Assembly (NCBI GenBank): GCA_019638025.1
Contig: JAHBUO010000008.1
Location: forward strand, 1-64,000
From: Ignavibacteriaceae bacterium
GTDB lineage: Bacteria > Bacteroidota > Ignavibacteria > Ignavibacteriales > Ignavibacteriaceae
Direction: 5' to 3'
DNA length: 64,000 bases
Under the pieces are notes generated by a model, which was not told the origin of the DNA, made no database searches, and was given only the letters and a program-made list of their open reading frames with translations. A program made the translations under genes and the position numbers. This document shows, in pieces, positions 57,494-63,477 of the stretch (its first letter is position 1; the number at the start of each line of letters is the position of its first letter).

Positions 57494-58285
57494 CTAATAA
57501 TTCATTATCAGCAATTCATGACCTCTTGGTTTAGTAACCCTTTTCGTGTGTCTGGTTATACCTGCTGAGTGCTTTGCGGTCTCCTTTTCAAGTATCCGGT
57601 AATCGCTATAGAATTCCCTAACTAATGGATGATCGTAATAGCTGAGCACAAACTTCCCCTTTATTCTCTTTAACACTTGACTAAGCTTCTTGTGTTCCAC
57701 TGCACCAAAGTTAACTTCATTCGTTTTGTAATAATGTTCAACTTCAACGTAAGGGGGGTCTAAATAAAACAACGTATTTTTAGTATCATATTTATTTATA
57801 CATACTGAGAAATCGAGACATTCTATTTGCACCTTTTTTAACCGAGCATTAATAGCTCCTAACCTCTTCAAAAATGGGAGCCATTTACCACTACCTGTTC
57901 TATCCAGAGCTACAACGTAACCCCAGCCGCCCCTACCTGAAAAAGATTGAACTCTCATAATTGCAGAATGCATTGCCTTTTCCACATCATTTAAAAACTT
58001 ATCGTCCTTAAGTTTTTCTTTTGCTTCGGTGTACATTTCCCTACTATGCAATGACCACTCAGCACGATGGCTAAATTCTTCATAATTGTCACGAATTGTC
58101 CGGAACAAATTGACCAATTGGCTATTCAAATAATTATATGTCTCAAGCACACTCTCTTCTTTTTTAAATAATACCCAACCACCTCCACCGAATACTTCGC
58201 AGTATTGCATCTTCTGGTAGTTCTTGGGAAAATTTGATATTATCCAACCGGATAAATAATTTTTACCGCCTATATAGGGGATCAT
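57494..58285 (-). CDS. DNA adenine N6-methyltransferase (Dam/D12 class)
   Basis: Phage-encoded N6-adenine methylase of the D12 class. SAM-binding start IPYIGGKNYLSGWIISNFP (a GGK-type motif), EVFGGGGWVLFKKE, the catalytic DPPY in LFYLDPPYVEVE, and the C-terminal FVLSYYDHP; 263 aa is typical. It is the last gene of the prophage, with an AGAGG Shine-Dalgarno block 7 bases before the ATG. Likely protects phage DNA from restriction or times expression. The target sequence (GATC or other) cannot be read from the protein. Confidence 0.92.
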   Translation of the reverse strand: MIPYIGGKNYLSGWIISNFPKNYQKMQYCEVFGGGGWVLFKKEESVLETYNYLNSQLVNLFRTIRDNYEEFSHRAEWSLHSREMYTEAKEKLKDDKFLNDVEKAMHSAIMRVQSFSGRGGWGYVVALDRTGSGKWLPFLKRLGAINARLKKVQIECLDFSVCINKYDTKNTLFYLDPPYVEVEHYYKTNEVNFGAVEHKKLSQVLKRIKGKFVLSYYDHPLVREFYSDYRILEKETAKHSAGITRHTKRVTKPRGHELLIMNY

Positions 58286-58727: not shown

Positions 58728-60008
58728 CTATTTCCAGTATGGAATCAACTTATAAGTTGATTCTTCCTTAGTTAGATTTTGAACCAATTCGGTTATAAAA
58801 TATTTATCTCCAAGCACCAAACAATCACGAATTAAAATGTCGGTTCTTGGCAATATTAATTCGTCTCTCCGTACAGTCTGTCTGGAGAGATAATATTCAC
58901 CCCAATAATCTGCTAAAAAGTCATACTTGTATTTATAGGAATACTCAGATGACTTAATGTAACCGACTGTGTAATAATTTCCCTCAGCAAATATTCTATA
59001 AACATTTTGATACACAAATATTTCTAATTTTTCCTCTTCGATACCCGTATCTGTTCCGGATTCTCCATATAATGTATTATCTGCGCGTAAAACCAAATAA
59101 TTTAACTTCTGATAAGGTCGTTTGAATATTAACTGTTTACGACTTTCGCTATTAACTGTTACCTGCCGGTACGAAGTTATGGGATGCAATACTTTAAATA
59201 TTGCTCTCTTTTGAGAAATCATCCCGGTAACACATCCTAAATCAAATGCGAGAGCTTTTAAAACTTTCATATAAGTCTTATAGCCGTTGGGAGAATAACC
59301 TTCGCCATCTAAGGTCTGAAATAAACCTCTATATCTTACATATAAGTTGTCAAAATTAACCTCAAAAGACCTTGGTGGTGGTGATACCTCAGCTTTCCAA
59401 GTCCAGTCGTGTGTGAATTCGACACTAATATCCGGATCGATAATTTTATACAAATCGGTTATTAATGTTTTAACTAATACATACTGATTACTGTTCCAGT
59501 CATAATAGTCACCAAGCAAATTATTAAATGTCTCACCAATATGAGTAGGCGAATAATTTAGTTTTTCTGATTGGGGGGAAAACTCCATCGTGAATAGATT
59601 TTTCGTCTCATCAAACATAAATACCTTATGATCCCAAAATCCGGAAAAATAAGTATAATAATCAGTTGTCCCATTATCCTTGCGTTGATATTCTAAAGTG
59701 ACAGAATTTAATTTACAGTTGGGAGCATTTAGGATTCTCCCCAGATAATTGTATTTATCAAATATCTCTATTTTGAAAGTTGATAATATTATCCAAAATT
59801 CCCTATCATTAATATCGGTCTTAAATATATCGTCTGAAATCACTTCTATACCAAATTCATCATTTGAATAATCAACCCAACTAAATGATCCTAAAATCAT
59901 ATAAGTTGCATCAATCGAAAGAATAATTTTTCTCGTTAAAGAAGGGTAAGTTTTTGGGCTGAATGTAATTCTAAATTTACCTACTAAATTCTCTGTATCT
60001 ATAGTCAT
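58728..60008 (-). CDS. Phage tail tip/baseplate-like protein
   Basis: A 426-aa protein directly after the tape measure gene (4-base overlap), the position of distal tail and tail-hub proteins in siphoviruses. It is rich in aromatic residues and beta-type stretches (DYYTYFSGFWDHKVFMFD, RDNGTTDY-like loops), with no signal peptide. The assignment rests on gene order and composition rather than a motif, so it is tentative; a receptor-binding component is another possibility. The 442 bases after it hold the hairpin and small frames described separately. Confidence 0.6.
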   Translation of the reverse strand: MTIDTENLVGKFRITFSPKTYPSLTRKIILSIDATYMILGSFSWVDYSNDEFGIEVISDDIFKTDINDREFWIILSTFKIEIFDKYNYLGRILNAPNCKLNSVTLEYQRKDNGTTDYYTYFSGFWDHKVFMFDETKNLFTMEFSPQSEKLNYSPTHIGETFNNLLGDYYDWNSNQYVLVKTLITDLYKIIDPDISVEFTHDWTWKAEVSPPPRSFEVNFDNLYVRYRGLFQTLDGEGYSPNGYKTYMKVLKALAFDLGCVTGMISQKRAIFKVLHPITSYRQVTVNSESRKQLIFKRPYQKLNYLVLRADNTLYGESGTDTGIEEEKLEIFVYQNVYRIFAEGNYYTVGYIKSSEYSYKYKYDFLADYWGEYYLSRQTVRRDELILPRTDILIRDCLVLGDKYFITELVQNLTKEESTYKLIPYWK

Positions 60009-61849
60009 CTTTTTAATACCAATTCTTCTTCAGTAGCCCTGAGTACACCACGTAGTTCTTTCCCATCTCCGGTTAGTACCACTGGTGGAATTTTTAACCT
60101 TAAAACTTGAGGTACTGCAGAACCAATAAATTTATTAAGTTCTGAGAGTGGGAACACACCTTCAGCTTCATCACCTTCACCTATCAGAGCAAGTGTAGGC
60201 TTGGTGACTACGCCACCTTTTGCAAATCCAAATATTTTTGTCGCAATGCTGAACAGCGAAATAATATCAAACCCTCCGGAACTTTTCTCACCAGCTTCAC
60301 CCGGCTCTCCGGAATTAGCACTTGTAATTTTATTCTTCAGCGAGTCCAGCAAACCGCTAACCATCATATCAGTTAATGAAGCATAAAATGTGATTTTTAT
60401 TCGTGACCACATAGATGCCCAGGCATCATCCATTCTACCCGTACCGTTCACGAATTCATCTACGAAACTATTGATTCCAGGCCGCATACTTTCAAGAGCA
60501 GCATTTGCAACCTTGTTATTTTCTTCCCACTCTCGAATTATTGCTTCTCTATTCCGCTTTTCATTTTTTTTATCTTTGTCATACTGAAGTGGGTCAACGT
60601 TCTGATATTCCTTTTTAAGAGTCACTCCTGGAAGTTTTTGGGGCAATCTGTCGAATTTACCAATTGTACCTATTGGTTTACCTGTTTCAAAATTAAGAGG
60701 TCTTAACGATTGTGCAGTTTTATTAATTTCCTTGAATTCTTCTTTTAGTATTCGTACTCTTTCTTTAAATCGATACTCATTTAACAATTTTTCAAGTACC
60801 GCATCACCTTTTGCAATTTTCATTTTTTCAGCATAATAGTTCTCCACTTCCTGAAGCTCTTTCTTATAACCAGTTTGCGTTTTTTCGAGAAGGTCTCTTA
60901 ATAACGACTCTTTTGCTCCACGTTCTTTCTCTGCTTGCCTTTTATCTTTTTCATCCTTTTTCTCTTTACTTTGTTCGTCCTGGAACTCTGATTCACGTAT
61001 AAGTTTTTTATAATAGTTGATTTGTTGATCGAGGGCAAATACATATCGGGGGTCTTTTATCATTCCCCGTCTTTCAAGCAGTAGGGATAATTGGTTATCC
61101 AAATCTTTGGTATAACCAACTTGTGCCGAAGCTTTATCCAAAGCGTTCATCTTATCGAGCAAATCAGTATATTTTTTCTGTTCTGTCTCACTTAAATTAG
61201 CATAACCCGAAACCAGGCTACCAATGCCCAAAGGTAAAGAATCAAGAAATTCCTTTCTGCCTGAATATTTTGCCCCATATTCTTTTGTAAGTTCAATAAG
61301 TTGTAACTTTGTTTTTGCTCTCTCATTATCGATCTGGCGACGTGTAAGTTTTTCATATTTACTTGCCAGGTCATCAATTGCCTTTTCTTGCTTTTCAACC
61401 TCCTTTGTTGTATCAGCAAATAATTGCGGGAGTACCTGTAGTAAAAACATAAGTGCATTTACTGCAAGCAAAACTCCACCAGGCCCCTTAATTGAATTGA
61501 ATAATGCTGTTTTGAGGGAAATACCGAGCTCTTTAGCCTCACGACTTGCCTGTTGCATGTACATAACAACCATCGGTATATTATTACCTATTGACATCAT
61601 TCCCATTCTAAAATTAACCATAAACATTGAGGCATCGCCAAGCACCCAGCCAAATTGCTGAACTGCTATGTTCATTCCCTTCATGTCTGCTGTTGTTTTT
61701 TGTGTAGGTGCTTCGGGGAGCGTCTTAAATAGCTTATCTATTTTCTCAGCATACTCCTTACTAATTTTTTCCCCTTTCCCTAACTCGGTTAGGAATGGCT
61801 TCAAATCTAAAATTAAGGCAAGTGCTAACTCATTATTATTGTTTGACAT
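60005..61849 (-). CDS. Phage tail tape measure protein
   Basis: A 614-aa protein that would set tail length and be ejected during infection. N-terminal helical part, a hydrophobic stretch (GPGGVLLAVNALMFLLQVLPQL, about residues 130-150), long charged coiled coils (200-400), and a C-terminal segment FAKGGVVTKPTLALIGEGDE followed by EGVFPLSEL, the characteristic tape measure ending. It overlaps the frameshifted chaperone end by 14 bases and the next gene by 4. It is short for a tape measure, so a short tail of about 90 nm is inferred if 0.15 nm per residue holds. Confidence 0.88.
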   Translation of the reverse strand: MSNNNNELALALILDLKPFLTELGKGEKISKEYAEKIDKLFKTLPEAPTQKTTADMKGMNIAVQQFGWVLGDASMFMVNFRMGMMSIGNNIPMVVMYMQQASREAKELGISLKTALFNSIKGPGGVLLAVNALMFLLQVLPQLFADTTKEVEKQEKAIDDLASKYEKLTRRQIDNERAKTKLQLIELTKEYGAKYSGRKEFLDSLPLGIGSLVSGYANLSETEQKKYTDLLDKMNALDKASAQVGYTKDLDNQLSLLLERRGMIKDPRYVFALDQQINYYKKLIRESEFQDEQSKEKKDEKDKRQAEKERGAKESLLRDLLEKTQTGYKKELQEVENYYAEKMKIAKGDAVLEKLLNEYRFKERVRILKEEFKEINKTAQSLRPLNFETGKPIGTIGKFDRLPQKLPGVTLKKEYQNVDPLQYDKDKKNEKRNREAIIREWEENNKVANAALESMRPGINSFVDEFVNGTGRMDDAWASMWSRIKITFYASLTDMMVSGLLDSLKNKITSANSGEPGEAGEKSSGGFDIISLFSIATKIFGFAKGGVVTKPTLALIGEGDEAEGVFPLSELNKFIGSAVPQVLRLKIPPVVLTGDGKELRGVLRATEEELVLKR

Positions 61850-62473
61850 CTTTCAACTGCTGTAAAAGAGTAATATTTTTATTTAAGCTTTCTTCTCTCA
61901 TAAGAAGCAGATATTGGTTTATTAATAAAGGGTTGTCTTCCATTTGTTTTTTTACCATCTCTATTTTAGTGGCATCGCCGCCGGTTAACTGATACAGAAG
62001 TCTTGTATCTGCTTCTGTATATTTTACACGGTAATATTTTGGGAGATGCTTTCCGAACCTTGAGAGCTCATGTTTGATTTCATCAATTGTGTCGCTCTCT
62101 CGCTTAGTAATATCAGCAATCGATTCAGTAAGCAGCTTGTTGCGGTCGAACCTTCTAAAAAAAAATCGCTGAATATTTCTGCTATAACCTTTCGACTGCT
62201 ATTTCTATACAACCAGTAGCGGTACAATTTAAACTTAAGCAGAAAATTTTTCTCTACAGGCTCAATAATAAGATCGAGCAATTGAGGTGTTTTTTTACTT
62301 GCAATAATAGAAGCGAGTACACCACCGCTAACTGCAAGCATATCACTTGCAAAATTAAATTGTACCGGTATTTTGGTATCTAACTTGGAAATGATACTGA
62401 GGAACTTTTCATCTTCCTTTAAACGCATTTCTTTTTGTCGAAAATCTTGATTGTTCAGGGGATAAGATTTCAT
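61836..62473 (-). CDS. Tail assembly chaperone, G-T type product by -1 frameshift
   Basis: Extended form of the 62024-62473 product. Slipping one base back on the nine-T run at 62157-62165 joins SDFF to FRRFDRNKLL and continues for about 105 more residues to a TAA at 61836, giving about 212 aa. The downstream frame is open, uses no start codon, and ends by overlapping the tape measure start by 14 bases. This is the layout of lambda gpG/gpGT, where the extended protein guides tape measure assembly into the tail tube. Codon count is whole only with a -1 shift. Confidence 0.8.
62024..62473 (-). CDS. Tail assembly chaperone, G-like product
   Basis: The unshifted product of 149 aa, ATG at 62473 overlapping the upstream stop by 4 bases. 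Residues 25-100 are helical and basic (LLKFKLYRYWLYRNSSRKV). The last 45 residues after the T-run (LEGSTATSCLLNRL) are in the frame that would be the rare continuation if the frameshift occurs. Position directly in front of the tape measure gene is the place of chaperone genes in siphophages. Confidence 0.75.
   Translation of the reverse strand: MKSYPLNNQDFRQKEMRLKEDEKFLSIISKLDTKIPVQFNFASDMLAVSGGVLASIIASKKTPQLLDLIIEPVEKNFLLKFKLYRYWLYRNSSRKVIAEIFSDFFLEGSTATSCLLNRLLILLSERATQLMKSNMSSQGSESISQNITV
62157..62165 (-). promoter_or_regulatory. Slippery T9 frameshift site
   Basis: Nine consecutive T on the minus strand (AGCGA-T9-AGAAGG). In the zero frame GAT TTT TTT TTA GAA; a single -1 slip gives TTT AGA AGG TTC. 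Slippage on homopolymers is common in tail chaperones. I did not find an obvious downstream pseudoknot, so stimulatory structure is unverified. Confidence 0.7.
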
Positions 62474-63477
62474 TCGCCATATACCCTTATTTCAAGAAAT
62501 ATGTTTATACCGGCTGTTACTGAGCCAGCAAACAGTTGATTGACTAAACCACACTCAAGTTCGTAGACATCAGTTTCGTATTCTTCCATTTGGAGATATG
62601 TTAATGTGACTCTCTGATATTCTCTCTCGGTAATAAATACAACCGTGTTTTCTAAGGTTGCCCCATACTGTGTTAGCCCAAATACTTTATAATATCCAGC
62701 ATTCGTTCTGGCAAAACTTAATTCCCCTATATTATTGAAGTAAGGCGTTACAGCCAGAGTCCCTTGATCACCATTTTGATAGAGCCCCACAACAACACTT
62801 TTGTAAGGTAGCCCTAAAGCATTACCATTAACTTTAACTTCTCCATTTAAATTTATCTTATCAGCGTATATAGTTACTTCTCCATAATCTTCTCCGGCTG
62901 TTGAAGTAATACTTGCATATGTTCCATTAGAAGCATTTGCTGTACTCAAAAGAGCAGTAGAATTATCAAGGTCAAAAATTATATTATTATTGTTGCCTTC
63001 GTCATTCTTACTATAATACGAAAACACTCTCTGTGTTACGGAAAATGTCCCACTTGCGTTTGTATAAGGATCAGTTTTCGTTATCTGAAAGTTCTCTTCA
63101 GGATTAACTACAAGCTGAATTGTTCCAAAATCATCCTCTGTTGACTGTGATGAAAACCGTAAATCCATCATAATGGGGTTACTGTTCACTGATAAATAAT
63201 TATCACTCCCAGCACCGGTTAATTGTAAATGCCCGAAAATTGTGTCGCCTGTTGTTTTAACATAACCGGTATCATTAAACTCTGATTTTTTCATATAATC
63301 AGAATCATTTGCAATTGTAGCATATACTACAACGGGTAACGGGCTAACTTGTGAGACAGGCACAATTGCCTCGCTTCCGGAGCCGGCTTTAGTGGTATCA
63401 ACAAATCGCACAACTTGAGACCACGACACAGTGGTCATTATAAGTAACGTAATTAGCAGAAAATTTAGTTTTTTCAT
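62470..63477 (-). CDS. Exported phage-locus structural protein
   Basis: A 335-aa protein in the usual place of the major tail protein but with a Sec signal peptide (NFLLITLLIMTTVSWSQ). The middle part has tail-fibre-like stretches (YMKKSEFNDTGYVKTTGDTI, GHLQLTGAGSD). The last 120 residues contain a domain (GLYQNGDQGTLAVTPYFNN...SFARTNAGYYKV) also present in the next gene upstream. AGAGGTG lies 7 bases before its ATG. It may be a secreted moron, a fibre, or a structural protein with a false signal-like start; the combination is unusual. Confidence 0.65.
   Translation of the reverse strand: MKKLNFLLITLLIMTTVSWSQVVRFVDTTKAGSGSEAIVPVSQVSPLPVVVYATIANDSDYMKKSEFNDTGYVKTTGDTIFGHLQLTGAGSDNYLSVNSNPIMMDLRFSSQSTEDDFGTIQLVVNPEENFQITKTDPYTNASGTFSVTQRVFSYYSKNDEGNNNNIIFDLDNSTALLSTANASNGTYASITSTAGEDYGEVTIYADKINLNGEVKVNGNALGLPYKSVVVGLYQNGDQGTLAVTPYFNNIGELSFARTNAGYYKVFGLTQYGATLENTVVFITEREYQRVTLTYLQMEEYETDVYELECGLVNQLFAGSVTAGINIFLEIRVYGE

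Follow-up and report, generated by a model that had tools for sequence, protein, structure and literature searches.

A 64-kb window, the whole stretch of DNA analysed here, carries what is very probably a tail assembly chaperone gene with a predicted -1 ribosomal frameshift on a U-tract, through which a single gene would yield two product forms. A -1 frameshift like that of lambda G/GT is strongly supported by sequence comparison, given that the two-frame layout and an in-phase slippery run are conserved in 33 of 33 loci. The sequence-only reading had proposed that a -1 slip joins the two frames in the lambda G/GT pattern, and the relatives bear this out. We infer slippage itself, its efficiency, the ribosome rather than RNA polymerase as its agent and the chaperone function of the products. 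The making of two tail chaperone forms by ribosome slippage is a well-known phage trick and a textbook example of programmed frameshifting.

The chaperone gene belongs to a Mu-like prophage of an Ignavibacteriota-type bacterium. The contig that includes the window is 72.5 kb long, and past the window edge it carries genes for a head-maturation protease, a major head protein, a cement protein and Mu Gp36-like and Gp37-like proteins. Next comes a probable tail tube of 334 aa (P0002). Two genes, of 322 and 335 aa, separate it from the chaperone, after which come the tape measure and a tail gene of 426 aa (Table 1). The head genes and the tail-gene order together indicate that a Mu-like head module is combined here with a module for a long tail. 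The chaperone lies between the major tail protein and the tape measure, the tape measure adjoining it downstream and the probable tail tube lying upstream with two genes between. That P0002 is the tail tube is probable from its place in the gene order and from weak homologues that closely precede the chaperone in genomes G035 and G063; P0002 matches nothing in Pfam, PHROG or NCBIfam and is another unmodelled family of the same prophage group. The 426-aa gene is, by position only, a probable distal tail protein. The 335-aa gene begins with a signal-peptide-like N-terminus (MKKLNFLLITLLIMTTVSWSQ), which is odd in a tail module, and has no family match in Pfam, PHROG or NCBIfam. A D12-class adenine-N6 DNA methyltransferase (PF02086, E 2.4e-30; 57494-58285, minus strand) adjoins the last tail gene, and in phage Mu a comparable place is taken by its own DNA-modification gene, mom.

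Table 1. Features of the chaperone locus and its neighbours, with the basis of each assignment.
Feature	Position	Strand	Size	Basis or note
Tail gene after tape measure	58728..60008	-	426 aa	Sub-threshold Pfam match to tail tube terminator
Tape-measure-like gene	60005..61849	-	614 aa	PHROG tape-measure matches down to 3.4e-07
-1 frame	61836..62198	-	120 codons, stop to stop	Open-frame reading and homologues
Predicted frameshift product	61836..62473	-	212 aa	T9 run and both frames
0-frame chaperone ORF	62024..62473	-	149 aa	Predicted short product
Overlapping slippery heptamer 2, U_UUU_UUA (TT[T TTT TTA])	62156..62162	-		Sequence
T9 run (U9 in mRNA), slippery tract	62157..62165	-		Sequence; kept as a run in relatives
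Slippery heptamer 1, U_UUU_UUU (GA[T TTT TTT])	62159..62165	-		Sequence and relatives
Gene between probable tail tube and chaperone	62470..63477	-	335 aa	ORF call
Probable tail tube P0002	L002:8478-9482	-	334 aa	Position and weak homologues

The coordinates of the two frames on the minus strand agree with the sequence-only reading, in which a 149-aa frame is accompanied by a second frame that runs into the tape-measure start. Residues 1-105 of the chaperone, up to the slip, are common to the short and the long product, and residues 106-149 form a tail found in the short product only. The N-part of the 0-frame ORF is conserved among relatives. In the -1 frame, the codons from 62159 on specify a 107-aa T-like C-terminal part, the end of which overlaps the tape-measure ATG (61849) by 14 nt. 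This continuation had been put at about 105 codons, a count that is here corrected to 107, and described as unlikely to arise by chance, which holds: among 20,000 sequences from a first-order Markov model of matching composition, 6 remain open over 107 codons, and in four real genes of the prophage the -1 frame reaches at most 38 codons without a stop. The second frame had also been described as lacking a start codon. This frame is not an ordinary separate gene, since no ORF of at least 60 aa starts within it. Homologues of the -1 frame in the same layout at 32 other loci are, on sequence comparison, a stronger argument than this chance arithmetic.

The T9 run sits inside the overlap, at the end of the shared part, in the minus-strand context 5'-AGC GAT TTT TTT TTA GAA-3', and is one of only three A/T runs of at least nine in the 64-kb window. 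It is in phase, for U_UUU_UUU and then for U_UUU_UUA, and both heptamers have the homogeneous XXX and YYY of the X_XXY_YYZ pattern. The second is the HIV-1 gag-pol heptamer. As the T run continues into UUA, the junction peptide may be SDFFLRRF as well as the SDFFFRRF proposed earlier, which is therefore possible and not the sole option; both junction readings are known for HIV U_UUU_UUA (PMC5009743). In E. coli, heptamers of the U_UU.U_UU.[U/C] and H_HH.U_UU.Y type are among the efficient ones (PMC4066793), and an older E. coli comparison, as cited in PMC5009743, has U_UUU_UUU and U_UUU_UUA as less shifty than A_AAA_AAG. No stimulatory RNA structure is predicted at the window site (z 0.97), no Rfam match was found, and no Shine-Dalgarno-like stimulator is evident upstream of the slip site on unscored inspection of the bases. 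Across the family, downstream RNA structure gives no consistent signal (mean z about -0.4 to -0.7). Stable hairpins do occur downstream in the individual relatives L074, L083, L072 and L082, where they are perhaps local features.

The window protein alone, used as a query, returned nothing from GTDB contigs, IMG/VR, phage records or 97 related genomes. The way in was provided by weak homologues of the tail tube in G035 (two prophages) and G063, whose loci were then read: each has two overlapping frames before the tape measure, and each pair is related by -1. A first profile built from four -1 parts gave further members in a phylum-wide sample, and a second built from eleven -1 parts was searched in 164 genomes of the same order, of which 23 contain matches to the -1 part (profile search, E <= 0.001). 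Scans of GTDB contigs and IMG/VR supplied additional loci, the titled GTDB records being Ignavibacteriota, Ignavibacterium and Melioribacter. Phylum-wide profile matches with E > 0.002 fell mostly inside long ordinary ORFs; L022, L026 and L036 (E > 0.002, checked by eye) and L019 (E 0.0018) were rejected as being without the chaperone layout. In all, 33 loci were tabulated with the window included. Some carry two labels and have identical sequence around the site (L072 and L056, L073 and L058, L074 and L059, L075 and L063, L071 and L053), and L071 is nearly the same as L015. Compared with L015, L071/L053 (CP053447.1, Ignavibacteriota IGN3) carries one more base in the -1 part, which breaks the long product after 37 codons; the cause is either an error in sequencing or a damaged prophage. 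At L066 (G518), positions 1-1006 comprise a CRISPR array with 11 repeat copies at about 73-nt spacing, the last repeat degenerate, and, directly adjoining it, a decayed remnant of the -1 part of this chaperone, its frame broken by an indel. A prophage may long ago have inserted where the array ends, or the two may have been joined in assembly.

A -1 relation with a homopolymer in the overlap was found at 33 of 33 loci, which answers the earlier suggestion to search other prophages for the same layout and slippery run. Homologues with both parts fused in one frame without a slippery tract had been named as evidence that would speak against the slip, and there are none among the 33 loci. The runs comprise 29 T-runs (T9 in 12 loci, T8 in 5, T7 in 8 and T6 in 4) and four of A9 or A10, and an in-phase U_UUU_UUN or A_AAA_AAN occurs at every locus. 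Among the T-run loci the majority have GAT TTT TT., the exceptions having GCT (L039), ACT (L065) or CTT (L067) in place of GAT. The first U of the run occupies codon position 3 in the window and in 27 of the 28 other T-run loci; in L067 the run starts a base sooner, with the heptamer U_UUU_UUU still included, and L055 has heptamer 2 (U_UUU_UUA) only. The start of a tape-measure-like frame or another long ORF lies just downstream in most loci. The run is also kept where base composition is GC-rich: L067 (G024, minus strand), at 64% GC, retains T9 at the slip site (ACG CTT TTT TTT TCG) as the sole run of T8 or longer in 3.3 kb, and L083, at 56% GC, retains T7.

Purifying selection acts on the -1 part in the L015 subgroup: across five close pairs, the stretch past the 0-frame stop has a dN/dS of 0.08-0.12, and the 0-frame part gives similar values. 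For the window copy, purifying selection on the -1 part would follow by homology only, because close relatives of that copy are absent. Codon choice at the slip site was assessed in the 12 D-F-F loci, where multiplying P(GAT) and P(TTT) under local codon usage gives 2.5e-05; as evidence for the slippery run this value is supporting only, because D-F-F is conserved as protein and the loci are related.

These data are best explained by a model in which most ribosomes would translate the 0 frame to its stop, giving a short and abundant gpG-like form. On GAU UUU UUU (UUA), a minority would move back by one base as the P-site and A-site tRNAs re-pair in tandem, either on U_UUU_UUU or on the overlapping U_UUU_UUA. 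Slipped ribosomes would then produce the long, gpGT-like form with its T-like C-terminal part, ending at the tape-measure start. By analogy with lambda, a fixed ratio of the two forms may allow the tape measure to be coated and tail-tube subunits to be recruited.

Among the closest parallels is lambda G/GT, whose slip site is GGGAAAG and whose gene order V-G-T-H, with overlaps, is the same as the window anatomy. Shared features are the position between the major tail protein and the tape measure, and a pair of overlapping frames in which the -1 shift comes late in the first and the second overlaps the tape-measure start (PMC5009743). Unlike lambda, the prophage has genes of 322 and 335 aa interposed between its probable tail tube and the chaperone, and its slip site is a homopolymer. 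Homology to lambda G or T is undetectable for either part (hhalign probability below 1%), and neither part has a match above noise in Pfam, PHROG, NCBIfam or PDB. The gene probably works like a G/GT pair, a likeness that lies in its anatomy. A plain homopolymer had been considered unusual for such a gene. It is not, because the tail chaperone of P2, E/E+E', undergoes its -1 frameshift on TTTTTTG with no downstream hairpin found, and the P2-like phages KS5, KS14 and KL3 are listed with it for the same hairpin-free U-run frameshift (PMC3091744). Both P2 and the window thus use a U-run heptamer without a hairpin, although P2 is a myophage, its run is six U followed by G rather than nine followed by A, and PHROG and Pfam scans of the window chaperone gave no match to P2 E. 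IS3-family transposases use the same kind of heptamer, U_UU.U_UU.C, for bacterial -1 frameshifting (PMC4066793), in a gene of different function and purpose.

Alternative origins of the long product merit consideration. It is improbable, if conceivable, that long U-tracts in this family (U9, with two overlapping heptamers and no RNA structure) serve two kinds of slippage at once, ribosome and RNA polymerase together setting the short/long ratio, and that lineages have switched between U-runs and A-runs with that ratio maintained. We consider it quite improbable that transcriptional slippage alone is responsible, with RNA polymerase adding one U on T9 in a share of the transcripts and ordinary translation of the resulting U10 message giving the fused protein. 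T9, present in 12 of the 33 loci, is long enough for such slippage, the window site has no detected stimulatory structure, and homopolymers of 9-11 A/T do slip in bacteria, as in tssM of Citrobacter rodentium (A11) and Yersinia (A9) (PMC4256274). However, in four relatives the run is just T6, with C or A after it, and in eight it is just T7, lengths judged too short for efficient polymerase slippage. A homopolymer of about nine or more in all members, irrespective of codon phase, is not what the family displays: polymerase slippage has no need of codon phase, yet phase is kept, and the common denominator of the loci is the in-phase U_UUU_UUN or A_AAA_AAN heptamer. Given the T6C, T6A and T7 relatives, ribosomal slippage is the better common explanation.

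Homopolymers are error-prone in assembly, and at the window site a true T10 would fuse the frames and a true T8 would give another frame, leaving the gene in one frame or broken. Such a miscount had been named as a reason to abandon the slip; tested as far as possible, relatives with T6, T7, T8 and T9 all keep the -1 relation. The 32 other loci, nearly all independent assemblies, keep it with T6 to T9 or A9-A10, and none is fused. Since run length varies and the -1 relation is constant, an assembly error or a pseudogene is very unlikely. That the -1 frame is a separate gene expressed by re-initiation or coupling is hardly tenable, for although overlaps are frequent among small phage genes, the window's -1 frame has no ORF of at least 60 aa starting in it, as noted above, and in L013, L072, L074, L075, L076 and L078 the frame opens right at the run, so that a start ahead of the conserved part would have no space.

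Ribosomal frameshifting at a U-tract is an already known mechanism; what is new is the chaperone family, which lacks library matches by sequence, and the host group. For annotation, gene callers would annotate the short ORF and so miss the second domain, as has happened in current libraries. The family may also serve as a natural series of U6, U7, U8, U9 and A9-A10 sites, mostly without obvious stimulatory structure, in which run length can be related to frameshift efficiency. To the frameshifted tail chaperones our analysis adds a previously unmodelled family, carried by transposable prophages of the poorly studied Ignavibacteriota and their relatives.
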